NCBI GenBank assembly: GCA_003559575.1
Contig: PWKZ01000244.1
Span: 1-33,714 of the forward strand
Direction of reading: 5' to 3'
Source of the DNA: Bradymonadales bacterium
GTDB lineage: Bacteria; Myxococcota_A; UBA9042; PWKZ01
Length of the DNA stretch: 33,714 nucleotides
Of the stretch, positions 9,201-26,827 are shown piece by piece. Under the pieces are notes generated by a model that was given only the letters and a program-made list of their open reading frames with translations, searched no databases and was not told the origin of the DNA. Each line of letters begins with the position of its first letter. The stretch's first letter is position 1. The translations under genes and the position numbers were made by a program.

Positions 9201-11308
9201 CGCAGATGCCCCTGGAGCGGGTCGTAGTGAGGATTGATGTCGCGCGCCCGGACACTCATCACCGCCTCGCTCAGCGCCACCTGCACGTCACGGCTGTACT
9301 TGAGGTCCGGCGCCGGCACGAACGTCACCACCGTATCGCCCTCCTCGCACGCCGGGTCGAACCCACCCGCGACGGGCGCCTCCGGCGTTTCCGGGTCCGT
9401 CGCCGCGAAAAACACGAGGAACGAACCGCTCTCGGGCGTGAGGTCCAGCGATTCGCAAGCCACCGCCTCGGAGAAGCGCACGGTTACCAACGGGTTGAGC
9501 CCGACTCCGGCAACCCCATCGCCAGGCTGTGTCGTGAGTACTGTCAAGTCGGGGATCGTCTCCACATCGAAGAGGTACTTCTTCACCTCGGGAAGCTGAC
9601 CGTCGCGGAACGTCGCCCGGTCGCTGCGGAGCCCCGTCAGAGACGGCGCCGGGGCGCCGTGCAGGGTCACGCGGATGCGTGTCCCGTAACCAAGCGGCGC
9701 GTCCGGCGTAAATACCAGCTCATTGTCCTCGCCGATGAGATCCGTGCCCGGCGGCGCGTCGGCCGCGTTCCAGGCGAACGAACCCGCAATGGACTCATGC
9801 GCCGGGTCGCTCAGCGGATCGCTCAACCCCGTCACGTCCTCAAAGGTGACGAGCCCCAACGCAGCGAGATCGTCCTCGCCGCTGCGATGCACGCCCTCGG
9901 TGAATTCGATCACGATGGAGTCCGAGACCCCTTCGATCTGGCGGCGCAGCGGTAGATGGCCGCTGCCCGAAACCACCGAGACCACGCCGAGCGCCGGCGG
10001 ATCCTGTACGCGGAAGCGGTAGACGATGGTATCGGGGAGTTGCCCGCCGCGATTCGTCGCGCGGTCCGACAGCACCACGTCGGAGAGCGGATACTCTGCC
10101 GGATCGCTGTCGCCCACTATGGTCACTCGCAGCAAGCGGGAGTAGTCGGGGATCTCGACCGGTGTCAACACCAGGGTGACGTCTTTCCCCACGAGGTAGG
10201 ATTCGTACGGCTGATCCGCCGGAGGCGCATCGGACGCAGGCTCCCCATCAAGATTCAGCCACTCGATATGACAGGGGACCACGACCGGCTCGGCGAGATC
10301 CTCGCTGACGTCCTCGACGAGGATCACGCCCTCGTCCTCGCCATCCAGGATGCCGTCGCCGTTCGTGTCGATGAGCGACTGCTGGACGCCTTCGCTGAAG
10401 GTCAGCACGATGGGGGCCGCGATTCCAGAGTTGGGGCTCGTCTCCCGCGGCGCCGCCGTCACGTCCGCGCCCGGGACCGCGTTGACGAGCGCGAGGGGCG
10501 GCGGATCGATTGTGGCGAACGGGATCGTCACCTCAGTCTGCAGAAAGCCGCCGGAAGGAGTCGCGATTGGGGTACGCACCGCCTGTGTCACAGTGACACG
10601 CAGGTTCCGCGTGTAGCCGTAAGCTGCAGCCGGCGTGAAGGTCACGATCTTGTCGTCGGCACTCCAGACGAGACCGGAGTCGTCCGGCTCCACTTCCACC
10701 GGGTTGGCGACGTCCGTAACGTCTTCGACGACGAAAGAACCACCGTATGTAACGGAGCTCGTGTCGATGGGGTGCGAGAATACGACCCGCACCGGTTGCG
10801 CCACCGAGACCTTCCAGCTCCCCGCCCCGGGATGGGTGTGGACCACCGTCAGCTCATCCGGATCCACGGTGCGGAACGTCGCCTCCACCGCGATCGCCAA
10901 CTGTCCCCCAAACGAGTGCTTCGTGTCGGCCTTCTCGATGGCGGTCGTGAGAGAAATCGAATACGTTGACGAGTAACCCCACGGCGCATCCGGCGTAAAC
11001 ATCGCCGTGCGTGTCTCCTCGTCGTAAGCGATGCTGCCCGCAACCCGACTCGGATTCTCAGGGTCCGTGACGTTCTCGACGAAGAAAGCGTCCTCCACAG
11101 TCAAGGACTCCGGCACCACCGCCTCCGAAAACGACACAGTCACGGGAAGATGCAGCGACACCGCCGTCGCACCGTCCGCCGGAGACAGGTGGAGCACCCT
11201 GAGGGGCCGGTCCACCGAAACCACGAAGTCCTGCTCGCTGCACGCGAAGAGCGACAACGACCAAGCCACCAAGATGACTGTCCGCACGACTCTGGACGAT
11301 GTACTCAT
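3287..11308 (-). CDS. Giant multi-domain Ig-like (Big_5/SbsA-type) repeat surface lipoprotein (~2.67k aa)
   Basis: ATG at 11308 with RBS AGGGAGGGGG; lipoprotein signal 'VVRTVILVAWSLSLFAC'. More than 10 copies of '..L.V....P.....V......v.v.FSEgV....'. Confidence 0.88.
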   Translation of the reverse strand: MSTSSRVVRTVILVAWSLSLFACSEQDFVVSVDRPLRVLHLSPADGATAVSLHLPVTVSFSEAVVPESLTVEDAFFVENVTDPENPSRVAGSIAYDEETRTAMFTPDAPWGYSSTYSISLTTAIEKADTKHSFGGQLAIAVEATFRTVDPDELTVVHTHPGAGSWKVSVAQPVRVVFSHPIDTSSVTYGGSFVVEDVTDVANPVEVEPDDSGLVWSADDKIVTFTPAAAYGYTRNLRVTVTQAVRTPIATPSGGFLQTEVTIPFATIDPPPLALVNAVPGADVTAAPRETSPNSGIAAPIVLTFSEGVQQSLIDTNGDGILDGEDEGVILVEDVSEDLAEPVVVPCHIEWLNLDGEPASDAPPADQPYESYLVGKDVTLVLTPVEIPDYSRLLRVTIVGDSDPAEYPLSDVVLSDRATNRGGQLPDTIVYRFRVQDPPALGVVSVVSGSGHLPLRRQIEGVSDSIVIEFTEGVHRSGEDDLAALGLVTFEDVTGLSDPLSDPAHESIAGSFAWNAADAPPGTDLIGEDNELVFTPDAPLGYGTRIRVTLHGAPAPSLTGLRSDRATFRDGQLPEVKKYLFDVETIPDLTVLTTQPGDGVAGVGLNPLVTVRFSEAVACESLDLTPESGSFLVFFAATDPETPEAPVAGGFDPACEEGDTVVTFVPAPDLKYSRDVQVALSEAVMSVRARDINPHYDPLQGHLRGAYEFGFSTLDPPPLAVQSVKGAAGSVSLLRDVDGDPATVDPESIVIRFSEGVCRYTDEETGEIDPAAILERLLIEDITGLDEAALAAGESHGVVEGSFAWNAGDLDWADENALIGADDTVVFTSATWWQWGMRVRVTLKGAQDNPVWLESDRATARGGQLPMDESHYFRVETLPDLTLVKATPSAEAQNIPIDQSIELVFSEGVDCASVEEGLLVSFAATDPEAPGTPVHGALTCTDAEETVVFTPTEHIKYSRDVVVELTDEVRSFRAADDPAHPEADPLQGHLRHGWAGGYSTVNPPLLGVVSVSSESGESLLLRGDAIVAVFTEGVAQASASLGETVVIEDVTGLESPLTDPSHGSIAGSLEWNSDDAPVGDDLIGDDDVLRFVPDELLPYGTWLRVTLKGSPDSADPGLHSDRATVRGGQLPRDVVLIFRVERLPELFVRGTSPGHLSTEVSQMTQSISVTFSAAPSCATITSDNLVVSYDTGVFTEDPLDPSGTTIAGSWSCEDGSATVVFTATEPFGWGRYILVSLGEEIRDVRAEDGAANANDADQGHLIPAYQFGFSTERIRLLQIISTNAAGSVSFERIRRIVVAFDREVDCARITPETFFVNRGLEADYEGRLEAEVFCDGDTAATVEIAAVDDTEEDRCDGIGLCYDTEYTFVLAGGSEGICVPEKDERDVTDDGCLPSPEVTFNFRTEGRPELTATLYPAANTEGVSTLIQPYVTFSNSIRQATVEEDIPPTNPLYPEPDGVEPNICLIEGRDLTDCSLPEAVDVEYVFSDADRVVTLQPLESLNPDTWYTFVVSRDIEDVNGMRLLSFYSSSFKTTPGGLLGDLTVHNREDVNDLYLRARFTDEVDVSLVNENTFYLTYEDELGATRLIPATVSVGSQDPAQECDPSETGSLHCDAATLVPDLMALFTCGSLTAELVGTDGALTSGTRNFATASYVFTANDVGKYVFLASDSYAANNGSFRIDDVSGGLAVLAGSGFATEENLSWSLTLTSNALPLNTVFTAHLSTAITSADGTENVWPSAGDRQYLMNFTTGGDTLVAGVSYTNPLLGPNKLGGADEVPVNSWFDVALTGAVDAASVSEATVYLADGRGADGRVIEGTAQFEVDAPGIFSAPRDLGKRIAISGSQHGNDGEYQIVTVVDDRTVTLAGGGLFAAAEGDLFWERRLSESVHYELEVTSGGRGVRVRPLMLLNRHADYRGRYAAVTAGGDTVAVSLANSNFRFREDRDLGRIITLTGVPLASNRAARIVAVDEGANSVTVDGPAFDASGTNLSWSLSDDRDYHELVLVGRSVSSPADYLRDTLGNPLAGNRRFRFVTSPETLVVVVPLGGLQTLMNPGVLFSRTVRFDSVTNETAYFMQGTTKVEALPSFIVSRPDTVTLFPVPALRDGINARVNITSDVIDFRGNPVNATEHNLGIVGGAPASAAIAPDRAPSVTPGGGSIAGKESFRLVWTDAGNNRTRMMPNSINHESVRLLQEVSTGGGGSVSAGSDIFSVTAANPFQVGRDEGRLLRVTVSGQGQNGYYVIEAVLSSSAVRLAAEFASSETGLGWELLVPIRYGVDYFADAGGGTSVDLIPVDRMLAGKPTRLIVDTTKITNMYTFAYTVTNTYSYTVETTAPTLEGVYGDALADAMVSLDGRTDVLPKTALTLLFSEGIAEESVTAASITLEDNDGEHVRGTFEVENNRVVFTPAAPLLSPLSPYTLTATTAVTDAAGNPMAAAAMTSFSIDSTAPSVLMTMPSDGASGVSVGAVITVEFDKAMEPLSLFGSTVWREGTFTVGYEPPLECNANVRDELFGCVSLDARGRRMTFVPQHPNHLIDEMVFTGTVREFVTDLGGNPLPGGDYIFDFDTVGGDSYGPVALCAAVPLTVADHTVDIHLNEPVDPASLHSDTLWVYEVEDGTRVPGVVSLEGGGTIVRFTADDDFTPDVFYGAILFADLADLDGDAQYEPLHVFFEVAP
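4502..6372 (-). repeat. Four copies of a ~60-aa 'DxGk.i.i.g....G.y.I..V.....v.L....f.....l.W' module inside the giant protein
   Basis: Approximate copies 6191-6372, 5667-5857, 5332-5526 and 4502-4689. Aligned cores: NDVGKYVFLASDS, RDLGKRIAISGSQ, RDLGRIITLTGVP, RDEGRLLRVTVSG; each ends in LSW/LFW/LSW/LGW. Confidence 0.7.
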
Positions 11309-11375
11309 ATCCCCCTCCCTATGGAAACTAACCGTTCGAAGCATCGCAAATATCTTCACGTCGCGATCCCGTCAC

Positions 11376-12017
11376 TCAGAAAATGTAGCGATACCCCACA
11401 CGCACGGAGTGACCGCCTATGTCCCCAGGCTCCAAGTTGTACTGGGGATAACCGAAGTCCAGGAAAGTGCCCGTGTACCGGTACTGACCAAGCACCCCCC
11501 CAAAGCGACCGAAACGGAACTCCACCCCACCACCGAGGTAGTAACCGTGCGCCACATCCGACTGCTTCGTGGTAGTGCCGAAACTCTTGCCCCGCGACCA
11601 CGCGAAAATGGCCGTATAGCCAACCTCACCAAACGGAACGAGCCACGGAATACCAGTGGGAATGTCCACCTGCGGCCCGATACTCAAGGGCATGAGATGC
11701 AGCCGCCAGGAGTAGTCGTAGAGCCCGATCTGCGCGTCCATGTTCTGACCCTCGCCCCACATCGGGTAGTAGCCAAGGTCGAAACCGAACGACAGATTGG
11801 GGTTCCACCACGGAAGGAGGTAGCGGAGACCGAGGTGTATCGCGAACGTCGAGTTCACGTGACTCGTCGGCACCAACAAATCCATCTTCACAGCGGCGCT
11901 GACGTACTTCAGTGACGCCTCGCCGTCAGCCCCATGCGCGTCGCGCGCCGGAAGACCCGCCAGCACGACCAGAGCGAATAACAACAAGGAGATCCTGCGT
12001 AGGCTAACCATGCTCAT
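11376..12017 (-). CDS. Outer-membrane beta-barrel protein
   Basis: Signal peptide 'LLLFALVVLAGLPARDAHG'; alternating aromatic/glycine strands; C-terminal 'VRVGYRYIF' ending in Phe. Confidence 0.75.
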   Translation of the reverse strand: MSMVSLRRISLLLFALVVLAGLPARDAHGADGEASLKYVSAAVKMDLLVPTSHVNSTFAIHLGLRYLLPWWNPNLSFGFDLGYYPMWGEGQNMDAQIGLYDYSWRLHLMPLSIGPQVDIPTGIPWLVPFGEVGYTAIFAWSRGKSFGTTTKQSDVAHGYYLGGGVEFRFGRFGGVLGQYRYTGTFLDFGYPQYNLEPGDIGGHSVRVGYRYIF

Positions 12018-12033
12018 CCCTCCTTACGGACGC

Positions 12034-12849
12034 TCAAGCCGCGTCTTCCTCGTCCGAGAAGTCGCTGTCCTCACCGGCATCCGGCAGCACATGAAACGAA
12101 AACGGGACCGGCGCGTCGAGCGGCAAGCCCGCCTCGTCGCAAACAGTCGTGGTCACGAGTCCCCGATACGTCCGGTGCGGGACCAGGGGCTCGTGAAGCA
12201 CGAAATCGGCCCGCAATTCGGCTGCGTCATAAAACACGTCACCCTGCACGTCGTAGAGAAAGAAGCTGCCCGCATGCAAACTCTCAGGGTCCATCGGCTC
12301 CGAGAACACCACCGAGACGCGGTCGAGCGACGACGAAACCCCAAACGCACCGTCCTCCGGGCTTATCGAAACCACGTACGGAATGGACGCGAACGCACGA
12401 AAATGAACAATCTGCGCCCGGTCCACCCCTTCAAGCCACAGCGGCTGCCCCTCCTCATCCTGGAGGCCGCGTGTCACCACCACCTGATAGAAAACGCCCT
12501 CGAACCAGTCGACCGAGGGCGTGAACGTCACCTCCATGAGATCCTCGGACAGCGAGAGCTCCCCAGACACGGGATCGCCCCCGAGGGCCTCCACTCGCAA
12601 CGACTGCGGCGTGACGCTTGATGGCAAGAGAGGCTTTGAAAACGTCACCCGCACGACGGCCTCGAGAGGCACCCCCGTCTCCCCGTCGAAAGGCGTGGTA
12701 CCCACCACCTCCAACGGCGCGAGGTCGCTTACCGGCTCGAAATCCGGTACGCACCCGCCCGGCACAGGCACGGCACAAAGGCACAGTAACGTGAGAAAAC
12801 AGCCCCGGATGCCCGACCTACCTCGCGACGACTGCATGCTCGCCTCCAA
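12034..12849 (-). CDS. Lipoprotein with two Big_5/Ig-like domains
   Basis: Lipobox-like VPGGC; two domains starting 'LEVVGTTPFDGETGVPLEAVVRVTFSKPL' and 'PYVVSISPEDGAFGVSSSLDRVSVVFSEPM'. Confidence 0.8.
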   Translation of the reverse strand: MEASMQSSRGRSGIRGCFLTLLCLCAVPVPGGCVPDFEPVSDLAPLEVVGTTPFDGETGVPLEAVVRVTFSKPLLPSSVTPQSLRVEALGGDPVSGELSLSEDLMEVTFTPSVDWFEGVFYQVVVTRGLQDEEGQPLWLEGVDRAQIVHFRAFASIPYVVSISPEDGAFGVSSSLDRVSVVFSEPMDPESLHAGSFFLYDVQGDVFYDAAELRADFVLHEPLVPHRTYRGLVTTTVCDEAGLPLDAPVPFSFHVLPDAGEDSDFSDEEDAA

Positions 12850-13036: not shown

Positions 13037-13678
13037 TCAGGGGCGCTTGCCCAATCCCTCGCGCGCGGAGGCGTGGTTCGGAGCGACCTGCAACACACGC
13101 TCGAACTCCTTGCGAGCGTCCTCTTGCTTCTCCTGCCGCAGGAGACTCCACCCCAGGCCGGCGCGCATCTCCACATTGGATGGATAGCCGGCGAGCGCCC
13201 GCCTGTACCAGGACTCGGCCTCCTCGTATTGACCCTGCTGGTAGTGGATAAACGCGATGCGGCTCTGGGCGGTGAAGTCCCCAGGCGCCTTTTTGAGGAC
13301 CTGCTCGCCCAGCGTGAGGGCCTCACCCCACTGGCGCGCGGCCATGAGCGAAAGCATCAGCCCAAGCCGCGGCTCGATGGCGTCGGACTCCAGACTCAGC
13401 GCGGCTCGATAGGATTTGATCGCTTCGTCGTACTTTTCACTCAGATACTGGAGCCAACCCGTGCGAAGATGGGTGACGTAGTCGACATGTCCGAGCGCGC
13501 GGATCTCCGCCATCGAAGACAGCGCAGAGCTGTAATCGCCACGCGCTTCGGCCAGATAGGACTTTTGGTAGTGCTCCGATACGCTCCCCGAAGTATCGCC
13601 CCAGGCCAACGGCACGCGGCACACTATGATGAGCATCAAGCCTGCCCGCCAAGTCATCCTCCATTTCGCATCCATCAT
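13037..13678 (-). CDS. TPR-repeat periplasmic/secreted protein
   Basis: ORF 13037..13693; ATG at 13678 preceded by AAGGAGG; TPR helices 'EARGDYSSALSSMAEIRALGHVDYVTHLRTGWLQYLSEKYDEAIKSYRAALSLE', 'GQYEEAESWYRRALAGYPSNVEMRAGLGWSLLRQ'. Confidence 0.85.
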   Translation of the reverse strand: MMDAKWRMTWRAGLMLIIVCRVPLAWGDTSGSVSEHYQKSYLAEARGDYSSALSSMAEIRALGHVDYVTHLRTGWLQYLSEKYDEAIKSYRAALSLESDAIEPRLGLMLSLMAARQWGEALTLGEQVLKKAPGDFTAQSRIAFIHYQQGQYEEAESWYRRALAGYPSNVEMRAGLGWSLLRQEKQEDARKEFERVLQVAPNHASAREGLGKRP

Positions 13679-13693
13679 TGCCTCCTTCAGCAC

Positions 13694-15169
13694 TTATCGC
13701 ACCCGAAACCCAAAGCCCAAAACCAGTCCATGAACATGACCGGTCCGGTATCCTCCGTCACCCTCTCTCGCGGGCGTGAGAAGCCGGTCGAACTCGTATG
13801 ACGCCAACAGGACGAACCCCCGCCCCACGTCGGCCGACAACCGCGCCCACGCGCTCCCACTCGGGCGATCCACGGTGTTGTAGATGACGCCACGGTCAAG
13901 CTCCACGGGGCGACATCGGGTGCCCACCCGCCCACCGAGCGCGAGAGCCCAGCCTGTCCCCGAGAACCCCAACTCAGCGCCGCCGCTCGACCAAAATCGC
14001 CCATCGGCGACCTGCCCTTCGAACATTCCAAGAAGATCTAACCAGGACAAGAGCGGAAGCCGGATCCCCACCTGCATCTGCGCGACATCAAAGTCGTCAT
14101 GAAAAGACCAGCCGGCCGAAAGCTGAAAGTCAGCCCAGTGCCGGAAGCGTCCGGCCAGGGCCGCCATCCCGGCGTGTGCGGCAGGCCCCGCGGAGTTCTC
14201 TCCATCGCACCGCCGGTCAAACAGGTAGGCACCGTGCCCCGTGAACCCCCAGACGGGCCCGTCAAAGCCTCCGGCGAGGTGAAGCTCGTGTTGGCCGATG
14301 GCCATGCGCTCCCGGCGCGGGGTCTCCGACCACGGCGCGCCGGACGCCGGCCCCACGGTCGGCTCGCGCCCACCGACGTGCAAGTAGCGATACGCCGACT
14401 CCACAAGGAACCGCTCCTCGAAACCGAGGCGCAGTCCGAGCGTTCCGGCGCCGTACCATTCCCGCCATGGGTGCCCATCATGGAGCGCACCGGCCAAAAC
14501 GAGCCACGGAAAGACGCTCGTCAGGGTCCGCGCGGCGTCAAGCCCCTCCCGCGCGCGCTCGTCTTCCGGGGCCAGCGCGGCGGCCCGCCGGAACAAGGTC
14601 CGCGCCGCGGCGCGGCGGCCTTCCCGCAACGCACAGAAGCCGAGTCCCAGGAGCGCGTCGACGTTGTCCGGGGCGCGCTCGTGGATCGCCTCGTACTCGG
14701 CTCGCGCCACGGCATGATCCCCCGCCTGAAACCGGTTGTACGCCCACCGCAGCCGCGCCTTCACGGACCACGGGCGCTCCTCACGCAGCGCTCGGTACAG
14801 CTCCGCGGCCGCCGCCGCGCGCCCCTGCCCCGCGAGCGAGTCGCCCACCCCCAGCCGGGCCGTAAAGCTACCGCCGGAGACGGTGGCCGCGACGCGGTAG
14901 CTCGCTTCGGCCTCCGAAAACTCCCCCGCTCGAAGATGATAGTAGCCGAGCGTGAGGTGCAGCGTGTAGTCCTCCGGGCACTCCCCGCTCACGGCGGCCA
15001 GCCTCGCCGCCGCCACGCCGAACCGCCCTCCGGCAGCCTCGCCGCCGGCCTTCTCGAGCGCCGCGCCGCAGGGATCTCCGCGCCCCGGTTGAGCGGCGAC
15101 GGCATAAGCCGCCATGACCAGGAGGGTCACCAAGCCGGCGATGACACATGTGACCGGGCGCCCCATCAA
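13694..15169 (-). CDS. TPR-repeat protein with C-terminal beta-barrel-like domain
   Basis: Signal peptide; TPRs ('LHLTLGYYHLRAGEFSEAEASYRVAA'); C-terminal half with amphipathic strands, ending 'GLVLGFGFRVR'. Starts with a 4-bp overlap with the upstream gene's stop. Confidence 0.8.
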   Translation of the reverse strand: MMGRPVTCVIAGLVTLLVMAAYAVAAQPGRGDPCGAALEKAGGEAAGGRFGVAAARLAAVSGECPEDYTLHLTLGYYHLRAGEFSEAEASYRVAATVSGGSFTARLGVGDSLAGQGRAAAAAELYRALREERPWSVKARLRWAYNRFQAGDHAVARAEYEAIHERAPDNVDALLGLGFCALREGRRAAARTLFRRAAALAPEDERAREGLDAARTLTSVFPWLVLAGALHDGHPWREWYGAGTLGLRLGFEERFLVESAYRYLHVGGREPTVGPASGAPWSETPRRERMAIGQHELHLAGGFDGPVWGFTGHGAYLFDRRCDGENSAGPAAHAGMAALAGRFRHWADFQLSAGWSFHDDFDVAQMQVGIRLPLLSWLDLLGMFEGQVADGRFWSSGGAELGFSGTGWALALGGRVGTRCRPVELDRGVIYNTVDRPSGSAWARLSADVGRGFVLLASYEFDRLLTPAREGDGGYRTGHVHGLVLGFGFRVR

Positions 15170-17340
15170 CCGCTCCCGTCGCCACTGTCACCCCTGCCTG
15201 GAGGGGCCACGAAGCGCACGATCCGCGCGCGCAAGGTCCCCTTGCCAACCGACACGGAAATCCGGCTCGGGCCCTCTTCGCCGGCAAAATGGGCCTCTGT
15301 CACGATGGGAACCGCCCCTGCCGTCCCCTGGCCCCGGATCACGAGCGTGGCCCCCTCCCACTCTGCGCGGTACTGCATGAGAACATTGTCGGCCGGCAAG
15401 AACGGGGAGACGAGATCGAGCATGGACGCGACCAGGGGCCAACGGATATGACGCCGCGGCAGGACATCGTCCCATCTCAGCTCGTCGCGCTGTTCGTAGG
15501 GGACACGCGGCGCGGCCAACGCCAGGAGAGCGGGCACCCCGTCTCGGGGTCCACGTTGGTCATAGGTTACGAACTGGTTGTTCTGGTTCTCGAAAAACAG
15601 CCGCGCGCCCGACCCCTTCGACTCCAGGTACAGGTTGTTGTACAGGTCAACCCCCGAGACCACCTCCTCAATCCGGGTCTTGCCCCTCGGGGGCGTGACT
15701 TCGAACCGCCAGGTCGCGCCGATGAGGAAGGAGAACCGCTCCGCGACATCCGCCTGGCGTTGCAGGGTTCGAACCGTATCGCCAAGGGCCGGCACATGGA
15801 AGCGATACAAAGCGGCCTGTGGATTGCCCGCCACCACGTCGTGGAACTCCGACTCGACAGTCGGCGCGCCGATACGTGGTGTACTCTGAAAATGAACGTG
15901 GAGATGCGGCACGAAAGAGCGCCCGCTGTTGCCGCACAGCCCGAGCACCATTCCCTTACGAACGAACTGTCCCTCGACCACCCGTACGGAGTCGAGCGCG
16001 AGGTGGCAGACGAACGAGAAGAGATCGCCACCGTGCTGGATGAGCACCAGATTGCCCCAGGGATCGCGTGGGTTGCGATTGCCCACCGGGTTGTCGGGCA
16101 CATTCCGCACGGCGTTCACCACCGTCCCGTCGGCTATCGCCAGGACCGGCAGTTTGTAGCAGTGATATTGCTCGACGAGGCTCCCGTCACCCTCATGCGA
16201 TCTTCCCGCGCTGTCGAGAACCTCGAAATCCCACGCGTGGCGCCACTGCTCACGGTGCGTGTGCTCTCCCTCCACACCCTGCGTGACCGTCCAGGCGCCC
16301 TGGAACGGCAGACGGAGACGAAGGGGAAACCGCGCGCCAAACCGCAAACTCCGGGTACGCCAGTAGTGGAGGCTCGCCTCCGGGCTGGCGGAGACGAACT
16401 CCACCGACTTCGGCGCTTCATCGCGCACCCTCTGCCGCATGGCAAAGAGAGTCACGCCCACCGTCAGGTTGAACGGGAGGATCAGCGCGGGCAGCCCGTG
16501 GCGGCCGAGTACTACAATCGTCGCCACCGTGACGACGCCGGCGATCAGGCTACCGCCTGTGGCCAACGCGAAAGCGCTGCGCCCCGGCACGAACCAGAGG
16601 CCGCCCAGGGCAATGACGGTCAGGACCATGTTACACCCGACAATTAGACCACCGAGCGGAGTGGGAAAGCCGAACACCCAGACGAGCAGGCCATAGCTGA
16701 CGGCGGCCCCAATGAATGAAAGGAGCAAGGCGATGCGGCTGAAGAGCAGCAGGGCCACCATGACCAAAAGTCCGGAAACCAGCTCGGGCTGGAAGAAGAT
16801 GGCACCCAGGGTGCGGAGGTAGTATTCGCCCCAACTTGGCAGCCAGCAGAGCCCCCCCATCTGCCAGGGTTCGTTGAACGAGACCGGCTCGACACCGGCC
16901 ACGAGCGGGACCACGGCCAGCAGAGTCAGCGTGACGAGTACGAACGGTAGCGACAATACCGGGAGCCGTAGCAAATCCCTCAGCAGCGATTCAAGCGCTG
17001 CCTGGACGAAAACCACTGCCGCCGCCCCGAACACGACCAGCGCGACCGTGGCGGGGCTAGGTTCCAGGAACGCGCCCAGTGCGAGTCCCACCAGGAGCGG
17101 GTTGTACCCGAAAACACCGTCGCGGGCGAACACGGGGCTGAGGCGCAGCGCGCGGACGATCAGGAAGGAGACCAGCACCGAGAGGAGGCCCATGGCCCCC
17201 AGTAAGGGCTTGATGAGTGTCGCGAGCAAGAGCGCGAGCCCCACCAGACGATTACGTGTGAAAAGCACCTGCGAGTAGGAGAAAAGTACCGGCTCGACCA
17301 CCGCGAACCGGCGCGTGGTTCGGGGACGCTCTGCCGTCAC
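15166..17340 (-). CDS. Urea transporter (UT family) fused to a C-terminal M23-type peptidase domain
   Basis: ORF 15166..17349; the GTG at 17340 gives a GTGA overlap with the upstream stop. N-terminal half is polytopic with UT signatures ('GVFGYNPLLVGLALG', 'PFVLVTLTLLA', 'NVxx-like PTPLGGLIVGCNMVLTVIALGGLWFVP'). C-terminal 'WRHAWDFEV...VVNAVRNVPDN...VPHLHVHFQS' is M23-like. Confidence 0.8.
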   Translation of the reverse strand: MTAERPRTTRRFAVVEPVLFSYSQVLFTRNRLVGLALLLATLIKPLLGAMGLLSVLVSFLIVRALRLSPVFARDGVFGYNPLLVGLALGAFLEPSPATVALVVFGAAAVVFVQAALESLLRDLLRLPVLSLPFVLVTLTLLAVVPLVAGVEPVSFNEPWQMGGLCWLPSWGEYYLRTLGAIFFQPELVSGLLVMVALLLFSRIALLLSFIGAAVSYGLLVWVFGFPTPLGGLIVGCNMVLTVIALGGLWFVPGRSAFALATGGSLIAGVVTVATIVVLGRHGLPALILPFNLTVGVTLFAMRQRVRDEAPKSVEFVSASPEASLHYWRTRSLRFGARFPLRLRLPFQGAWTVTQGVEGEHTHREQWRHAWDFEVLDSAGRSHEGDGSLVEQYHCYKLPVLAIADGTVVNAVRNVPDNPVGNRNPRDPWGNLVLIQHGGDLFSFVCHLALDSVRVVEGQFVRKGMVLGLCGNSGRSFVPHLHVHFQSTPRIGAPTVESEFHDVVAGNPQAALYRFHVPALGDTVRTLQRQADVAERFSFLIGATWRFEVTPPRGKTRIEEVVSGVDLYNNLYLESKGSGARLFFENQNNQFVTYDQRGPRDGVPALLALAAPRVPYEQRDELRWDDVLPRRHIRWPLVASMLDLVSPFLPADNVLMQYRAEWEGATLVIRGQGTAGAVPIVTEAHFAGEEGPSRISVSVGKGTLRARIVRFVAPPGRGDSGDGSG

Positions 17341-18683
17341 CGTAACCACTCGGGGACCTCCTCCAGGGACACCAGGGTGTCGAGGGTCTCCGCGTGCCGG
17401 ATGAGGGCGGTCTCACCGCTGGTCGACACGAGCACCACCGCCGGCCGCGCCGTGATGAACTGTAGCCACTGTGTGACGTTGTAGGCGCCCACGCTGCGAA
17501 AGACCAGCCGGGAGCCTGTCTCCATCGGCGGAAAGAGCAGATGCTCCCGCATGGTATCGATGTTCATGCAAAGTGGACCGTGGATGACCGTCGCTTCCGG
17601 TGTCCCCCGAAACTCGGCCGCCGGCACCACATCGTGTTTGTACCAGAAGGCCGTAAACAACAGGTTGACGCCGGCGTCGATGACGAGGGACTTGCGCCCG
17701 TCCGGCAGTCGCTTGTTGGCGTGCACTGTCGCGATGAGATAGCCGGCCTCATCGACGAGCGACCGGCCGGTCTCGAGAAACAGTGTCGGCTCGTGGCCCG
17801 GCTCCACCACCAGGGAATCGAGCCCCTCCGCGACCGCCTCCGCGTACTGTCCGAAGGAGGGGGTCGTCTGCTCCCCCGGGAGGTACTGGGCGTGCAACGT
17901 ATTGCGCGACGCGAAGCCTCCCCCGATGTCGATGGCGTCTACCTCGATCCCGAGCTCGGCCTTCAACTCGTTGGCAAAGACCGCCAGATTACGCGCTTCG
18001 TCGCGATACGCCTCGGTGTCCTGGATAAATGTCCCGAGGTGACAGTGCAGGCCCGCCACGTCCAGCATCCCGCCCGTCACGATGCGCCGCACGGCATCCA
18101 ACGCCTGCCCATTTTCGAGGTTGAACCCGAACCGCCCCCAGAGTGGAACACCTGCTACCGTCATGTTCAGGCGGATCGTGACCTTCGGGCGCACGCCGAT
18201 CTCGCGCGCGACCTTCTCGGCGCGCTGGATCTCGTCGAAATTGTCGAGATGCACGCGCGCCCCGTCACGAAACGCCTTGGCGAGCGCGTTCTCCGGCTTG
18301 AACGGTCCATTGAACAGGATCCGCGACCCGGGAACTTCAAGCCGGCGCGCCTTGTCGTACTCCAGCTCGCTCACCACTTCGGCCCACGCGCCCGCGCGGT
18401 GAAAGACACGGCAGATCGCGTCGAGGTAGTTGGTCTTGTAGGACCAGGCGGTCTGGACTTTCGGCCACCGGCGCCCAAAAGCACCCTGGAGATCCGAATG
18501 CCGCGCCTTGAGCGTTTTCTCGCTGAACACGAACAGCGGCGATCCAAAGCGCTCGACGAGTGCCTCCACCGCGACGCCGTCGATGTGCGTCATCGGCTGG
18601 ATGGACTTCGCCCGCGCCAGCTTGTTCATCATGCCTCTCGCATGTCGCGCGATGGTGGGCGGCTCGTACCGCGGTTTAGTCAT
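17337..18683 (-). CDS. Type III PLP-dependent decarboxylase (Orn/DAP/Arg decarboxylase family 2, LysA-like)
   Basis: PLP-Lys region 'AWSYKTNYL'; 'LHCHLGTFI'; 'IDIGGGF'; 'LETGRSLV'; 'HGPLCMNIDTM'; 'VGAYNVTQ'. Confidence 0.88.
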   Translation of the reverse strand: MTKPRYEPPTIARHARGMMNKLARAKSIQPMTHIDGVAVEALVERFGSPLFVFSEKTLKARHSDLQGAFGRRWPKVQTAWSYKTNYLDAICRVFHRAGAWAEVVSELEYDKARRLEVPGSRILFNGPFKPENALAKAFRDGARVHLDNFDEIQRAEKVAREIGVRPKVTIRLNMTVAGVPLWGRFGFNLENGQALDAVRRIVTGGMLDVAGLHCHLGTFIQDTEAYRDEARNLAVFANELKAELGIEVDAIDIGGGFASRNTLHAQYLPGEQTTPSFGQYAEAVAEGLDSLVVEPGHEPTLFLETGRSLVDEAGYLIATVHANKRLPDGRKSLVIDAGVNLLFTAFWYKHDVVPAAEFRGTPEATVIHGPLCMNIDTMREHLLFPPMETGSRLVFRSVGAYNVTQWLQFITARPAVVLVSTSGETALIRHAETLDTLVSLEEVPEWLR

Positions 18684-19732
18684 CGAACTTTCTCCCCTGA
18701 GGTCGCAAGGGCCTCAAAGTCCTCGATCGAAGCGAGCTGGTCCAGCGCAATCCGTACGAACATGGCGCCGGCCTTGAACCCCGAGAACGGCTCGACACGT
18801 TCTCCCATCGCGAGCCGCGCCACGGCCCACGGGAGGTTCTGCCCCGCGCCAACCGAGAGGTATGTCCAGGCCGGGAAGCGAGGGTTGATCTCGAGCAAAA
18901 GATACCGCCCTTTCGGGGTCTTCAGAATCTCGACCTCGCACGGCCCGCGCCAGGATGTCGCCGCCATGAACCGTCGTGTAAGCTCCAGCAGCATGGGATC
19001 CTTGACCGCCACTCCGGCCCAGCCCTTGCCCTTGTCGGTGAACGTGGTCTTTCGCATGGGGACGGCGCCGACGAGCCCGCCGCGGCCATCCCCCACCGCC
19101 ACGACATCGTATTCTTCGCCCTCGTAGTACTGCTGCGCGATGACGGGCAGACCCCAAATCGCGGCCGTGCGATGAAAGGCCGCCACGGCTTCATCCGCGG
19201 TGTGGCAGATGGTAGCGCCATAGAAGATCCCTTTGATGACGAGGGGGTATGAGACACGCTGATGGATCTCGAAGAGCGTGGCGGCGTCGTTCACCGTCTC
19301 GCCGCGCGGCACATTGATCTCAGCGCTTTCCCCAAGGCCCATGAGCTGGGTCTTCGCGCGGAGATCGAGCTGCGCCCGCGTCGGCAAGAATGTTCGAATG
19401 CCGAGTCGCTGGAGGTCGTCCTCGAGCGAGATCAAGGCGGGCAACTCAGAGTCGAGGGTCGGGATCAGCACGTCGATCCGCGTCCGCTCGTGGATGTATG
19501 AAAGTCTCGCCAGCAGGGCGTCGGCGCCCTGGTCGGGATATGGGAGGAGGAAAGCCGCCATGAGGTCGAGATCGGCGCAGTAGAGACCGGGGTCGAGGGT
19601 GTCGTACGCCAGGCCGACAAGCTCGCCGTTGAAGTCGCGAGCGTGGCGTAGCGCGCGCATCACCGACACACCCGGCCCGGGATTGTCCGTGGCATTGAGC
19701 CCCGTGACCGCCACATGTAGATCCTCTCGCAT
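18680..19732 (-). CDS. ATP-grasp domain ligase (CarB/PylC-like)
   Basis: ATG at 19732; 'VAVTGLNATDNPGPGVSVMRALR', 'PLVIKGIFYGATICHTADEA', 'QQYYEGEEYDVVAVGDG', 'GPCEVEILKTPKGRYLLLEINPRFPAWTYLS'. Confidence 0.87.
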   Translation of the reverse strand: MREDLHVAVTGLNATDNPGPGVSVMRALRHARDFNGELVGLAYDTLDPGLYCADLDLMAAFLLPYPDQGADALLARLSYIHERTRIDVLIPTLDSELPALISLEDDLQRLGIRTFLPTRAQLDLRAKTQLMGLGESAEINVPRGETVNDAATLFEIHQRVSYPLVIKGIFYGATICHTADEAVAAFHRTAAIWGLPVIAQQYYEGEEYDVVAVGDGRGGLVGAVPMRKTTFTDKGKGWAGVAVKDPMLLELTRRFMAATSWRGPCEVEILKTPKGRYLLLEINPRFPAWTYLSVGAGQNLPWAVARLAMGERVEPFSGFKAGAMFVRIALDQLASIEDFEALATSGEKVR

Positions 19733-19745
19733 CGTGCCCACCGTG

Positions 19746-20012
19746 TTACACCTCGGAGTCGCGCGGCAGGATACCCTGTTCCTTGAGCGCACGCAGGAAT
19801 TCATTCAAATCGCGAACCAGGTCATTGCGGTCGGTCGTGTCGAACTCCTCGCGTAACGCTTCGATCACCCCGTCTGCATCCTTGCCGTCGCGGAGCCGCT
19901 CCAGGATGAAAAGGCCCGTCGGACTAACGCTGAACGTGAGCCCCGTGACGGGGTCGAACACGAATCCGCTCTCGCTCAACGCGATCTCCTTGAGTCGCTG
20001 TTCCACGCTCAT
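19746..20012 (-). CDS. PqqD-family protein (RiPP recognition element-like fold)
   Basis: 88 aa: 'SESGFVFDPVTGLTFSVSPTGLFILERLRDGKDADGVIEALREEFDTTDRNDLVRDLNEFLRALKEQGIL', the typical PqqD/RRE arrangement. Confidence 0.85.
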   Translation of the reverse strand: MSVEQRLKEIALSESGFVFDPVTGLTFSVSPTGLFILERLRDGKDADGVIEALREEFDTTDRNDLVRDLNEFLRALKEQGILPRDSEV

Positions 20013-20040
20013 CGCGCCACCTCTCGTTCAAAAACTCGCA

Positions 20041-21222
20041 CTAAGGACGCCCCGGAGCGAACGAGGTGCAGACCCCGTCCGCACGACAGACGTACTGCGC
20101 GCCGCAATCCCATCCCTCGTTCTTGCAGCTCGGCAGGCACGCCTCAAAGTCCGGATCACATGCGTAATCCGTTCGGCAATCGCCTCGCTCCGGCAGGCCG
20201 GGCAACGGCCATGCGGCCGGCGTGCACGACGGCAGACAGTATCCGACGCCTTCGAGCACCGCGCAAACCGCTCCCTCGGGACACGCCCCCGCGGCACACG
20301 GCACGGTACACATTCCCCCTACCCAACCGGTGGGCGATCCATCTTCCGTGGCCGAAAAACACCAGCCGGTCTCACAGTCCACCGCGGAGTCACAGGGGCC
20401 TCCCAGAGCTTCGAGTGGCGGCGGAGCGAAGTCGCAGCGTCCATCAGCGCCGCAGACGAGCACGGCGCCGCAGTCGAACCCGAGGCGACAGTCCGGCATG
20501 CAAGCCTCGAAGCCCGCTTGACAGAGATAGCCTTCACGGCAATCGGTGTCGGCCGCGCACGCGGAGAGACACCAGCCAACACCGTCGAGCGGGGCACAGG
20601 TCATACCCTCACCACAAATACCGCCGGCACCGCAAGGTTCTGAGCAAAAGCCACCCGGCCAGCCGGTCGCAAGACCATCCCGCGTTTCCGCAAAGCAGAT
20701 GCCTGAAGCGCAGTCAAGCGCCCACTCGCACGGTTCCCCGAGCGCTCTCAGTTCCCCCGGTGAAGCGACGCACACCCCCTCCTCTCCACAGGAGAGAAGC
20801 GGGCCGCAGTCGAAATCCAACCGGCAGTCGGGCAGACACGCCCCAAAGGCCTCGTTGCACACGTAGCCTGCGCGACAATCCGCGCTGGCGCGGCACGCCG
20901 GGAGACACCAAGCCCCCCCATCGAGCGGGGCGCACGCGAGCCCCTCCGCACAGCCACCACCAGAATCACACGGCCGCGTGCATAGCCCCTCATCCCAACC
21001 CGTCACCACCCCGTCACGGACCGCGGCGAAGCAGATCCCGGAGGCACAGTCCCAATCTTTCTCGCATGACCCGCCATCCGCGACAGCGCTCGGCCAATCG
21101 CTCCCCGCGGGCTCGACGCAGCCCAGGAGCATCATCGCAAGAATCGCCGAAAAAAAGCGCGCGCGGCGAAAAAGGGCGCTCGTTGTAGCGAAACGCGTTG
21201 CTGTTGAGTGTTCGCGTTGCAA
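20041..21222 (-). CDS. Cys-rich secreted lipoprotein with three ~105-aa tandem repeats
   Basis: TTG start at 21222; lipobox-like MLLGC; repeated 'L.G.PC..A.DC.SG.CF...DG..TGW..G.C..PC....C.EG..CA.L.G..WCL..C....DCR.GY.C...FEACLPDC...FDCG'. Confidence 0.8.
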   Translation of the reverse strand: MQREHSTATRFATTSALFRRARFFSAILAMMLLGCVEPAGSDWPSAVADGGSCEKDWDCASGICFAAVRDGVVTGWDEGLCTRPCDSGGGCAEGLACAPLDGGAWCLPACRASADCRAGYVCNEAFGACLPDCRLDFDCGPLLSCGEEGVCVASPGELRALGEPCEWALDCASGICFAETRDGLATGWPGGFCSEPCGAGGICGEGMTCAPLDGVGWCLSACAADTDCREGYLCQAGFEACMPDCRLGFDCGAVLVCGADGRCDFAPPPLEALGGPCDSAVDCETGWCFSATEDGSPTGWVGGMCTVPCAAGACPEGAVCAVLEGVGYCLPSCTPAAWPLPGLPERGDCRTDYACDPDFEACLPSCKNEGWDCGAQYVCRADGVCTSFAPGRP

Positions 21223-21459: not shown

Positions 21460-22998
21460 TTAACGCGGATTTAAGATCACCGCTGGTTTGTGAAGATTTT
21501 GTGAAGACGCAGGCAACCACATCGAAATCGCGAACCCTTGGGGGCTGAGGTTGCGTGCCTGAACAGTCCCCCCGCAGGCAGTGACGACGCTCTTCACGAT
21601 GGCGAGGCCAAGCCCCGCCCCGCCGGACTCTGCAGTACGAGCCTCTTCGGGACGGAAAAACGGTTCAAAGATGCGCCCCAGCACTTCCTCGCCGACACCG
21701 GGGCCACTATCCCGCACCTCCAGCCGCACCATCCCGCCTTCTCGCTGCGCCTCGACCACGATGGGCCCCTTGTCTCCGGCATAGCGAAAAGCGTTACGCA
21801 AAACGTTTCCGAGCGCCCGGACCAAAAGGTCTTGGTCGGCCATGACTTTCAGACCCGCGGGCACCCGCGCCTCCACCGCCGCGCCCTGCTCCGCTTCGCG
21901 CCTGAGAGCGCGCGCGACCACTCCATCAACCTCGAAGGACACAAGGTCGGCCTGGTGGGGCGCCACCTCCGCGCGCGCGAAAACGAGGAGCTCCTCGACC
22001 AGCTCGGACATGTACTGGACGTCCTCCTGCACATCCCGTAGCTCTTCGACCAGCGCGCCCCGCGAACGACTCGCGATAATCTCGAGCCCCAAGCGAATCC
22101 TGGCGATCGGGGAGGCCAGCTCGTGTGAGACGTCCCCGAGGAAGCGCTTTTGCGCGCGCATGTGACCGTCGAGGCGCGCCGACATTTCGTTGATGGCACG
22201 TCCGAGCCGCCCCAACTCATCACCGCGCTCTGCCTCGACACGCGCCTCGAATCGCCCGTCGGCAATCGCGACCGCCACCTCGGTCATCCGCTGGATGGGC
22301 TGCGCTATCCGCCGCGCGATGCCGAGCCAGAGCAACACCACGGCACCCCCAACGCTGATGACCAGCGCGATGAAAGGCTGCGGCTGCCACTGGATGCCCC
22401 GGCCTGCAAACGCGCGGGACACGGCCAACAGCGTGGCGGGCACCGCTGGACTCCCCGGCGCCTCCACCACCGCCATTCGCACGCCCGCCCAGTATCCGCC
22501 GGACCCGCTCGTGCGCAGGGCGAAAAGCGGCGCCTCAAGCGCCTGCGCACCCTCCCCGGCGAGCCCACGCGTCGGCGGTCCGTTCAGCGAGTGCGGCGCC
22601 CGCTGGGAAACGGGCGGGGGTACCGGTTGCGTGCCAAGCTCCGCTATCACGCCCCGGGTTCCTCTTGAAGAACTCGTCAAGACCTCGAACACTTCAGGGG
22701 GAAGCTCATCGGCGCGCCCGGCGAGCCGCCGCCCGGCGTTCGAGTAGAGGGACAGCTCCAGACCGGTTTCCGAGGAGTACCGCGCGAGGACCGCTTCCCA
22801 CTCAGCGGCGGGCGACGAGGAAAGCTCACCGGCCACGCGACCGGCCATCACGAGCAGGCGGGGGGTGATGTCCAGGCGCAACGGCGAGTCCGCCGGGAGG
22901 AGGGACTGCACAGCGACAAAGCCCGCAACGACCCCTCCGATAACCGACAAGGTGACGATGAGACAGAGTAGCAGCCGGTGAAACAACGAAAATCGCAA
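21460..22998 (-). CDS. Sensor histidine kinase (HAMP-HisKA-HATPase_c, CpxA-like)
   Basis: Two TM segments; HAMP 'RRIAQPIQRMTEVAVAIADGRFEARV'; H-box 'FLGDVSHELASPIARIRLGLE'; N-box 'ALGNVLRNAFRYAG'; G boxes 'VRDSGPGVGEE', 'GGAGLGLAIVK'. Confidence 0.93.
   Translation of the reverse strand: MRFSLFHRLLLCLIVTLSVIGGVVAGFVAVQSLLPADSPLRLDITPRLLVMAGRVAGELSSSPAAEWEAVLARYSSETGLELSLYSNAGRRLAGRADELPPEVFEVLTSSSRGTRGVIAELGTQPVPPPVSQRAPHSLNGPPTRGLAGEGAQALEAPLFALRTSGSGGYWAGVRMAVVEAPGSPAVPATLLAVSRAFAGRGIQWQPQPFIALVISVGGAVVLLWLGIARRIAQPIQRMTEVAVAIADGRFEARVEAERGDELGRLGRAINEMSARLDGHMRAQKRFLGDVSHELASPIARIRLGLEIIASRSRGALVEELRDVQEDVQYMSELVEELLVFARAEVAPHQADLVSFEVDGVVARALRREAEQGAAVEARVPAGLKVMADQDLLVRALGNVLRNAFRYAGDKGPIVVEAQREGGMVRLEVRDSGPGVGEEVLGRIFEPFFRPEEARTAESGGAGLGLAIVKSVVTACGGTVQARNLSPQGFAISMWLPASSQNLHKPAVILNPR
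21490..21506. promoter_or_regulatory. Candidate OmpR-family response-regulator site: GTGAAG-N5-GTGAAG direct repeat (11-bp period)
   Basis: TTGTGAAGATTTTGTGAAGA inside the 3' end of the kinase gene, upstream of the Cys-rich/PqqD operon; matches 12969-12985. Confidence 0.45.
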
Positions 22999-23004
22999 AT
23001 CTTC

Positions 23005-23721
23005 CTACTGTCCCGTGGTCGGCTTCAAGAGAAACTGGTAGCCGACCGTCCGTACGGTACGAATGAAACGAGGCGCTTGGGGGTTGTCGCCAAGCTTCCT
23101 CCTGAGCGATGAGACATGCACGTCCACTGTGCGGTCGAAGACGTCGGAGTAGCGCCCCGCGAGAAGCGCAATGAGTCGCTCGCGCGAGAGAACTCGGCCG
23201 CTCGCGCTCGCCAGCGAAAACAACAGATCGAACTCCGTCGGCGTCAAGTCCAACGGCGTGCCGGCCAGAGTCGAAAGCCGAGCATCGGGGTCGATCACCA
23301 GGTCTTCGACCACGATCGTGCGGGAGGCGCTCTCGCGCGGCGGAACGCGCCGAGCGCGCCGGGTGACCGCCCTGAGACGCGCGAGCAGCTCACGCGTTGA
23401 AAAGGTTTTGGGGAGATAGTCGTCCGCGCCAAGCTCGAGGCCCACGATACGGTCCGTCTCATCACCCCTGGAGGTGAGCATGAGCACCGGTACGTCGCAG
23501 CGCCCACGCAGGTTCCGTAAAACCTCGAACCCATCCATGCCGGGGAGCATCACGTCGAGAATCACGGCATGATAGTCCCCGGTGGCGGCATGCTCGAGCC
23601 CTTCGGGGCCGGTGTAAACGAGTGAGACCCGATATCCGACCGACTCCAGATAGCTCCGGATCAACCCGCAGAGCTTGCGATCGTCGTCTATCACGAGGAT
23701 GTGTTCGTTAGCGGCCACCAC
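23005..23721 (-). CDS. OmpR-family response regulator (receiver + winged helix, CpxR-like)
   Basis: ORF 23005..23844; GTG at 23721 with AAGGA-type RBS gives ~238 aa. 'HILVIDDDRKLCGLIRSYL', 'VILDVMLPGMDG', 'LTSRGDETDRIVGLELGADDYLPKTF', winged helix 'LDLTPTEFDLLFSLA...VDVHVSSLRRKLG'. Confidence 0.92.
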   Translation of the reverse strand: MVAANEHILVIDDDRKLCGLIRSYLESVGYRVSLVYTGPEGLEHAATGDYHAVILDVMLPGMDGFEVLRNLRGRCDVPVLMLTSRGDETDRIVGLELGADDYLPKTFSTRELLARLRAVTRRARRVPPRESASRTIVVEDLVIDPDARLSTLAGTPLDLTPTEFDLLFSLASASGRVLSRERLIALLAGRYSDVFDRTVDVHVSSLRRKLGDNPQAPRFIRTVRTVGYQFLLKPTTGQ

Positions 23722-23886
23722 GAATCCATCCTTTTCAAGCAGGCGGCCCAAGTGGATCTCGGCAGGCTCGCCTGAATGACCGACGTTACGGTCGCGACAA
23801 TCCGTTTGGGCGCGCGGCATCGGTCCCGGACATAGAATGTTCAAGTTGCCCCAACCCCGCCTCCACTGTCAACTGGCGTGATCCGT

Positions 23887-25556: not shown

Positions 25557-26580
25557 CGTGTCGTCCTCTTCGGTCGTCGTAAAGATCAAAGGTGGCACGC
25601 GCGGCGGCGCGCATCTCTTCACGCAGCGCCGGCGGCGCCAGCACCTCCACATACGGCCCGAACCCCCTCAACCATGCGCGGAGTTGGTTCGTGTCGGCCA
25701 CGGTCGCGACCACGTGCAACCGCCCGTCTTCGAGCGCGGAGGCGCATTGGTCGTCCGACAGCGGCGCCTCCACGATGCTCGGTATGACCTGCGGCGCGAA
25801 ACAGGCCTCCAGCACGATGGCCTCTTCCCCCACCGGAAAGTCGAACGCGCCGCCTTGAATGTATTGGTCTATGTCGAACCCGGAGCGCTCGTGGCGCGGC
25901 TCATCCAGCATCTCGGCCTCGTCGATGCGGTGCAGCGCGAGCTGGATGATATCGTCGTAGTCACGCGCGGTGGCCACGAGATAGGCCACCGTCTCGCGGT
26001 GTACGAGCGCCAGCGGGCTCACATCGAACTCGCGCGCCGTGGTCTCGCCGCGGCGCCGATAGCTGACCCACAGACGCCGCTCGCGCAGGAGCGCCGACTG
26101 GACCGCCTCGTTCACTTCGGCGTCGATCGGGGGCGCCACGCGCGCCAGCCCCGCCGCGATGACCCGCACTTTCGCCGGCCACGAGCCAAGAATGCCACCC
26201 ATCTTCTCGGTGTCGAGTCGGTCGAGGACACCCGTCGCCCGGCGAAAGTACGGCTCCAGGTAAGAGCGCGTGGTGGCGGGCAGCAGGTGCGCCAGGTGTT
26301 CGGCCGCCAGTCGGAACGAGAGCGCGCCGTGGGCGTCCATCCCCGGTAAATCAAACGGATCGGAGTCCCGCAACCAGGACCAGCCGTAGGGCTTCGACCG
26401 GTCGTCGCAAATGAGCGGGAAGAAACTGGAGAGTTTGACGAGATCGCGCTGGATGCTGCGCCGGTCGACGGTGAACCCGCGCTCCTCGAGAATCTCTCCA
26501 AGCCGGCTCACCGCCACCTTGCGCGGCGCGCGGGGGATAAATCGCAGCATGTGCCAGTGACGCAGGATTGTATCGGGCAT
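25549..26580 (-). CDS. WYL-domain transcriptional regulator
   Basis: ORF 25549..26964; ATG at 26580 starts MPDTILRHWHMLRFIPRAPRKVAVSRLGEILEERGFTVDRRSIQRDL (HTH); then 'LWVSYRRRGETTAREFDVSPLALVHRETVAYLVATARDYDDIIQLALHRI' (WYL). Confidence 0.88.
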   Translation of the reverse strand: MPDTILRHWHMLRFIPRAPRKVAVSRLGEILEERGFTVDRRSIQRDLVKLSSFFPLICDDRSKPYGWSWLRDSDPFDLPGMDAHGALSFRLAAEHLAHLLPATTRSYLEPYFRRATGVLDRLDTEKMGGILGSWPAKVRVIAAGLARVAPPIDAEVNEAVQSALLRERRLWVSYRRRGETTAREFDVSPLALVHRETVAYLVATARDYDDIIQLALHRIDEAEMLDEPRHERSGFDIDQYIQGGAFDFPVGEEAIVLEACFAPQVIPSIVEAPLSDDQCASALEDGRLHVVATVADTNQLRAWLRGFGPYVEVLAPPALREEMRAAARATFDLYDDRRGRHDD

Positions 26581-26762
26581 GGCCGAACCTCCGAGATTGC
26601 CGAAGTCGCAGGAGAGATGGCGCCGGAACTTCAAGAGAGCGCCCACCTCCATGGGGCCAGACCACCTGTTTAAAGCGATCCCGAACGGTCCGATTACGAC
26701 GCCGCTCCTGGCGTCCACATCCTTGATGGGCCCGTCACGCTCCGAGGGTCGGCTCCAAGCGC

Positions 26763-26827
26763 GCATTCTTGCAACGCTGCCCCTCAATAGCAACGCGTTT
26801 CGCCATAGAACGAACCGACGATTATGG
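26763..26827 (+). repeat. Dispersed motif family 2, copy B (contains both boxes)
   Basis: Bases 26763-26803 match copy A; 26807-26827 match copy C exactly. Confidence 0.7.

Follow-up and report, generated by a model that had tools for sequence, protein, structure and literature searches.

The window analysed here, a stretch of 33,714 nucleotides from a Bradymonadales bacterium (contig PWKZ01000244.1, one of 306 in a draft genome of 3.9 Mb), raises the question of what a PqqD-type RRE (recognition element of ribosomally synthesized and post-translationally modified peptides, RiPPs) binds when it is encoded beside an ATP-grasp ligase, a fold-type III pyridoxal phosphate (PLP) decarboxylase and a group of envelope proteins. 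An earlier note had proposed these genes, at 13037-21222, as a candidate undescribed system that could attach or process an amino acid or amine on a peptide or cell-wall substrate. With somewhat better than even confidence, we propose that the leader-like tag on the decarboxylase, a metabolic enzyme, is the ligand of a lasso/LPP-type RRE, which joins the enzyme with the ATP-grasp ligase within an envelope-linked cassette of many phyla. This would be a reuse, for enzyme docking, of a leader recognition otherwise known only in the making of RiPPs. The features concerned are the following (TPR, tetratricopeptide repeat; UT, urea transporter).

20041-21222, minus strand: Cys-rich repeat lipoprotein (lipobox MMLLGC; no Pfam match), an accessory.
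19746-20012, minus strand: discrete PqqD-type RRE resembling lasso B1 proteins and LppB (Pfam PqqD, 1.2e-11; PDB profile matches).
18680-19732, minus strand: ATP-grasp ligase, like carbamoyl-phosphate synthetase (CPSase) and ATPgrasp_Ter (Pfam ATPgrasp_Ter, 7.7e-10; NCBIfam; invariant residues).
17337-18683, minus strand: fold-type III PLP decarboxylase resembling N-citrylornithine decarboxylase (Pfam Orn_Arg_deC_N, 2.6e-30; profiles; invariant residues).
18651-18668, minus strand: leader-like tag YEPPTI, decarboxylase residues 6-11, the predicted RRE ligand (motif present in orthologues).
15166-17349, minus strand: UT-M23 fusion, starting at GTG 17340 or 17349 (Pfam UT, 1.3e-48, and Peptidase_M23, 4.5e-13; AlphaFold2; Foldseek).
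13694-15169, minus strand: outer-membrane protein with a TPR superhelix and a 14-stranded β-barrel (AlphaFold2; Foldseek).
13037-13693, minus strand: secreted TPR protein, probably periplasmic, the last core gene, probably starting at ATG 13678.

The best PDB matches of the RRE family profile were TbiB1 (5v1u/5v1v, 3.9e-11), TfuB1 (6jx3, 6e-10), PbaB1 (9x90) and LppB (9x8z), all of them discrete RREs whose structures include Y/WxxPx[L/V/I] leaders (PMC13381572), and discrete lasso RREs bind leaders of the form [Y/W]xxPx[L/V/I/F/A] (PMC13381572; PMC12710340). In LppB, D70 bonds the leader tyrosine and F74 divides the pocket (PMC13381572). With the published LppB contact residues matched to the chain numbering by one constant offset, taken from the profile alignment and the text of the paper, N33 was kept in 71/77 and D70 in 73/77 cassette RREs, the F74 position held Phe, Tyr or Trp in 73/77, and most pocket positions were hydrophobic in >90% of sequences. 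The corresponding motif, [Y/W]xxPx[I/L/M/V], was found in the N-terminal extension, ahead of the catalytic fold, of every one of the 79 cassette decarboxylases, which carried 73 different tails with an invariant proline and either tyrosine (70) or tryptophan (9) at the first position. Elsewhere it occurred within the first 30 residues of only 6 of 798 neighbouring genes, and at the N-terminus of 0/81 ATP-grasp and 0/59 UT-M23 proteins. The tag resembles the LPP leader consensus YxxPxVLxHQ (PMC13381572), with histidine at position 9 in 60/79 sequences, and is followed by a conserved NKFG whose lysine is present in 76/79. The NCBIfam model of FslC aligns with the window decarboxylase from residue 19 only, past the motif. 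Two genomes carry split clusters: in that of locus L087 the RRE lies on a separate contig, and in that of L075 a decarboxylase with YERPSI lies beside UT-M23 on a separate contig. Taking these sequence patterns together, we consider it likely that the RRE recognises the decarboxylase tag, a predicted docking.

The cassette that holds this pair extends well beyond the window. When the collection was scanned with the ATP-grasp alignment, 180 relatives were returned, 80 of which were kept; loci are said to have room where enough flanking sequence was available to judge the presence of a partner. RRE, ATP-grasp, decarboxylase, UT-M23, TPR/barrel and TPR recurred in broadly this order in about 80 loci, with the barrel gene shifted to the front in some. 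Their lineages, taken from record titles that may be misassigned for metagenome-assembled genomes, are Myxococcota/'Deltaproteobacteria', Bacteroidota (including the cultured Mucilaginibacter phenanthrenivorans), Gamma- and Betaproteobacteria, Gemmatimonadota, Neomarinimicrobiota, Spirochaetes and Planctomycetota. Among loci with room, the ATP-grasp gene was accompanied by an RRE in 74/75 (directly adjoining in 74/75), a decarboxylase in 74/75, UT-M23 in 60/62 and a TPR gene in 41/47. A first contig scan with UT-M23 as query gave no match; UT-M23 orthologues were found in nine same-class relatives, with the whole set adjoining wherever contigs were long enough. The distribution within the phylum of the window is patchy, the ATP-grasp occurring in 27 of 284 genomes (about one in ten), and tblastn against plasmids returned only remote ATP-grasps of <30% identity. 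The core proteins coevolve, pairwise-distance correlations among five of them giving rho of 0.66-0.87, a level reached in 0 of 200 permutations. Because the arrangement is kept across phyla, it is not due to chance, and we regard it as almost certain that the cassette exists and is coherent; the earlier note would have given up its proposal had orthologues never co-occurred elsewhere, and the gene-neighbourhood check decisively showed that they do. No NCBIfam equivalog or PADLOC model scored over its cut-off for the cassette, and no description of it or of the UT-M23 fusion was found in the open-access literature (subscription papers lay outside the search), which upholds the proposal of a coherent, apparently undescribed cassette of RRE, ligase, decarboxylase and envelope module.

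In the window, all seven consecutive minus-strand open reading frames (ORFs) and the tight junctions described earlier were reproduced, together with alternative starts. The Cys-rich and PqqD genes are separated by 28 bp, and PqqD and the ATP-grasp gene (ATG at 19732) by 13 bp; the ATP-grasp and decarboxylase genes overlap by 4 bp (ATGA). The decarboxylase and UT-M23 genes overlap by 4 bp (GTGA) if the latter starts at GTG 17340, or by 13 bp from GTG 17349, and UT-M23 overlaps the TPR-barrel gene by 4 bp with start TTG 15169, or by 1 bp (TGATG) with ATG 15166. The last TPR gene follows after 15 bp, its ATG at 13678 preceded by AAGGAGG. Pfam placed UT and Peptidase_M23 on a single polypeptide, and Pfam and NCBIfam recognised two TPR proteins. 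Promoter- and terminator-like patterns within the unit did not exceed those of shuffled sequence (1 vs 1.2 and 5 vs 6.6).

The decarboxylase points to the chemistry. Its family profile scored 326 bits against N-citrylornithine decarboxylase (7kh2), 235 against the diaminopimelate (DAP) decarboxylase of M. jannaschii (DAPDC) and 146 against BtrK, and the invariant residues of the enzyme comprise K83, H213, GGG254-256, E304-x-G-R307 and C372-M373. The residue after the active-site cysteine is always methionine, as in 7kh2, whereas DAPDC has glutamate. Scores fell below the cut-offs of both TIGR01048 (LysA; 208.6-209.7 bits, cut-off 297.9) and NF041039 (FslC; 222 bits, cut-off 500), and strong FslC-like matches in 141 genomes of the phylum numbered 12, all inside this cassette. 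A housekeeping role as DAP decarboxylase was ruled out, as the genome of the window carries a separate true lysA scoring over the cut-off. That true DAP decarboxylase (G000:C185, L121) seems to be fused to an aspartokinase as a bifunctional protein, in an open frame of >1000 aa. The suggestion that the cassette enzyme acts on DAP, ornithine or arginine thus gives way, given its closest relative, the invariant Cys-Met pair and the separate lysA, to a predicted separate subfamily that would work like N-citrylornithine decarboxylase.

Enzymes of this decarboxylase clade use conjugated amino acids, namely citryl amides and esters, carrier-bound glutamate and modified microcin C (PMC7857480), and ligation followed by decarboxylation of the conjugate is therefore the likely order; by analogy with BtrJ/BtrK and FslA/FslC, we lean modestly towards such a scheme here. 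The ATP-grasp partner keeps K167, E266, E268, E281, N283 and R285 invariant in 81 loci, with its Mg/ATP residues retained, and its nearest relatives are CPSase-like ligases. A Ter-operon lead suggested by the Pfam ATPgrasp_Ter match yielded no usable paper.

The same chemistry could be directed at the decarboxylase tail itself. The RRE would then present the tail, the ATP-grasp enzyme would add an amino acid (for example to the NKFG lysine) and the decarboxylase would act on its own cargo, much as BtrJ and BtrK work on the carrier BtrI and as in precursor-enzyme fusions such as borosins. The leader-like tag followed by the conserved NKFG, the presence of both an ATP-grasp and an RRE, and the use of carrier-bound glutamate by BtrK-type decarboxylases (PMC7857480) speak for it. 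However, the NKFG lysine occurs also in the stand-alone N-citrylornithine decarboxylase, where NK/SK is aligned, and therefore looks structural, and BtrK is a more distant match than N-citrylornithine decarboxylase (146 vs 326 bits), leaving this explanation unlikely.

Docking of the tagged enzyme, as we propose it, needs no separate peptide, and the search for one bears on an alternative in which this is a classical RiPP system, with its precursor gene at another site in the genome and the tag as a mimic or regulator. Precursor peptides are the usual ligands of RREs (PMC12710340), a leader-binding domain is present, and the M23 domain could serve as protease. However, no conserved short ORF was found in the 80 loci, whether upstream of PqqD, in the gaps between the ATP-grasp and decarboxylase genes (including those of some Bacteroidota) or in an all-vs-all comparison of neighbouring ORFs, and nearby short ORFs with a YxxP motif were unrelated to one another. 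The cluster and its surroundings thus offer no separate ribosomal precursor, and the peptide substrate that the earlier note expected nearby did not materialise: the sole conserved leader-like sequence is the decarboxylase N-terminus, which carries the tag in 79/79 cases and retains it where the cluster is split. We consider a classical RiPP system quite unlikely.

Equally, among characterised decarboxylases the nearest comes from siderophore biosynthesis, and ATP-grasp ligases are found in such pathways, that of vibrioferrin for example. The cassette might accordingly be read as a siderophore- or metallophore-like pathway, with an FslC/PvsE-type decarboxylase, a PvsA-type ATP-grasp, export by the envelope genes and an RRE that merely stabilises the decarboxylase. 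Against this, neither the IucA/IucC-type synthetase that marks clusters for NIS siderophores (those made independently of non-ribosomal peptide synthetases, NRPSs) nor an NRPS or TonB receptor was recognised among the recurrent neighbours, and neither UT-M23 nor a TPR barrel is a component of siderophore transport, making this reading improbable.

If the ligase and decarboxylase are docked as proposed, the envelope module would handle their product. The AlphaFold2 model of UT-M23 (pLDDT 91.6) matched dvUT (Foldseek 1.5e-15; TM 0.85 of target) and the LytM domain of DipM (1.2e-6), so that Pfam, model and Foldseek agree on the UT fold, and H365, D374, H449, H482 and H484 of M23 were invariant in 59 orthologues, giving the complete zinc and catalytic set (H...D, H, HxH). 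The urea-coordinating residues of dvUT, which we take to be Q24, E187, T130 and T294, fared differently: glutamine is kept in 38/59 orthologues, the E187 equivalent is lost in all (Ala or Ser in 56/59) and the T294 equivalent is mostly Ile, Ala or Val, with Thr or Ser in 10/59. Because the E187 and T294 positions are replaced, urea is an unlikely cargo; the fusion noted earlier stands, in its UT fold and intact M23 centre, without its urea site. The C-terminal β-rich domain of UT-M23 (about 215 residues, ~501-715; window 15205-15849, minus strand) is confidently folded, had no Pfam match and no PDB fold match among the Foldseek matches listed, and is a candidate new domain.

The outer-membrane protein was modelled (pLDDT 91.2) as a TPR superhelix with a barrel of 14 strands, matching BcsC (Foldseek 1.8e-13), with the barrel alone closest to OmpG. 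It shares with Slam the TPR domain and the 14-strand barrel; Pfam and NCBIfam gave no Slam barrel family match, and most loci offer no neighbouring lipoprotein as a candidate cargo. Lipoproteins were ruled out as a universal cargo of the TPR barrel, having a neighbouring gene in a minority of loci. From these parts, export or cell-wall action of the module is a tentative proposal. In the latter direction, the cytoplasmic enzymes might supply a group bearing an amine, which UT-M23 would add to peptidoglycan or trim off it, with the TPR and barrel proteins coupling wall and outer membrane. The invariant M23 centre, fold matches to peptidoglycan endopeptidases, the secreted TPR protein and the outer-membrane barrel fit this explanation; peptidoglycan is a putative substrate, and wall modification alone does not explain the RRE tag, so that on its own it is improbable too, though it may be compatible with the docking explanation. 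A defence system was ruled out, as PADLOC gave no match.

In the docking explanation, which as a whole has about an even chance of being right for this cross-phylum biosynthesis-and-envelope cassette, the PqqD-type RRE would bind the [Y/W]xxPx[I/L] tag at the decarboxylase N-terminus and probably also touch the ATP-grasp ligase, as RREs do their modifying enzymes. Holding both tag and ligase, it would let ligase and decarboxylase act as a single complex, with no precursor peptide needed. The ATP-grasp enzyme would link a carboxylate to an amino-acid amine, and the N-citrylornithine-decarboxylase-like enzyme would strip the carboxyl group from the conjugated amino acid to give an amide-linked amine. 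The UT-fold protein (not for urea) with its periplasmic M23 domain may then, together with the secreted TPR protein and the 14-strand TPR barrel, transport the product, attach it or set it free at the cell wall and outer membrane. The computation itself shows the cassette and its coevolution, the tag, the conserved RRE pocket, the enzyme subfamily, the M23 centre, the loss of the urea ligands and the barrel fold; the order of reactions, the physical docking and the export step are what we infer.

Several points weigh against this explanation. The RRE of the window itself has Ser at the N33 equivalent (as do 5/77 in all), the contact between RRE and ATP-grasp is assumed by analogy, and the conjugates used by FslC-like decarboxylases are varied. 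The distance correlations were compared without correction for shared ancestry. Moreover, since a TPR match is missing in six loci with room and UT-M23 is missing nearby in two, the envelope part is tied to the rest less tightly. Of the earlier interpretation, the coherent cassette remains, while the substrate type, the nearby peptide, the reading of the UT domain and membership of the Cys-rich gene have been revised.

This last gene encodes a lipoprotein whose homologues lie beside the cassette in some Myxococcota only (L036/L091, L041, L047, L078, L081, L084, L088, L102 and L128), at its start or its end; the conserved unit is therefore one of six genes with this lipoprotein as an accessory, and the Cys-rich protein was ruled out as a universal substrate. 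The slot after the last TPR gene, which holds the Cys-rich lipoprotein in other Myxococcota, is taken by unrelated lipoproteins at L072:16769-17857, L115:16407-17519 and L124:15649-17541. Neomarinimicrobiota/FCB-type cassettes carry a secreted protein of ~150 residues directly upstream of PqqD (L108:3888-4367, L110:9260-9739, L114:1508-1939, L085:1474-1932 and L145:9459-9944), with a barrel-like protein ahead of it in several; it seems to be particular to this lineage and to stand in for the TPR barrel.

Two further genes lie upstream in the window.

21460-22998, minus strand: histidine kinase directly upstream of the cassette, a possible regulator, pairing with the next gene as a two-component system.
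23005-23844, minus strand: response regulator with receiver and Trans_reg_C domains.

Two-component genes are common upstream of other loci as well (response regulators in 10/56, kinases in 7/56). Directly downstream of the cassette, and on its strand, lie a protein of 2690 aa carrying seven Big_5 Ig-like domains (3287-11359, minus strand) and a small Big_5 protein (12034-12849, minus strand), with an OMP_b-brl barrel protein at 11376-12017 between them, possibly a separate surface-adhesin unit. A WYL-domain regulator adjoins a divergent sodium:solute symporter gene at 25549-28652.

Within the open-access literature searched, we found no report of an RRE with its conserved ligand on a metabolic enzyme. 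If correct, the docking explanation gives a well-known recognition module a new use and means, with consequences for genome mining, that an RRE beside an ATP-grasp enzyme does not establish a RiPP. Because the cassette occurs in many phyla, including the cultured Mucilaginibacter, an unassigned pathway reaching the outer membrane can be tested directly, by means of short peptides and a pair of small proteins.

Among known systems, BcsC, PgaA and Slam share with the cassette a periplasmic TPR superhelix followed by a β-barrel. The Slam barrel has 14 strands, as do that of OmpG and that of the cassette, and the BcsC barrel has 16; the cassette barrel differs from all three in lacking a sequence-family match, and the cassette lacks a polysaccharide synthase or defined cargo. 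UT-M23 shares its fold with dvUT and differs in its altered E187 and T294 positions and in its fusion to M23 and the unmatched C-terminal domain. BtrJ-BtrK-BtrI, which makes the butirosin side chain, is alike in principle, in that an ATP-grasp enzyme first forms the conjugate and a type III PLP enzyme then decarboxylates it, but its scaffold is the carrier BtrI, whereas the cassette has an RRE and no carrier, and the decarboxylases are only distantly similar. FslC/FigC of rhizoferrin biosynthesis is the closest decarboxylase, with the Cys-Met active-site pair and an N-terminal arm with lysine in common; FslC has no leader-like tag, and the cassette has no recognised NIS synthetase. TbiB1, TfuB1/FusB1, PbaB1 and LppB share with the cassette the RRE family, the leader-contact residues and the [Y/W]xxPx[L/V/I] motif. 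In place of the B2 protease, cyclase or kinase of the lasso and LPP systems, however, the cassette has an ATP-grasp ligase and a decarboxylase, and the motif that those systems carry on a precursor peptide is here carried on an enzyme.

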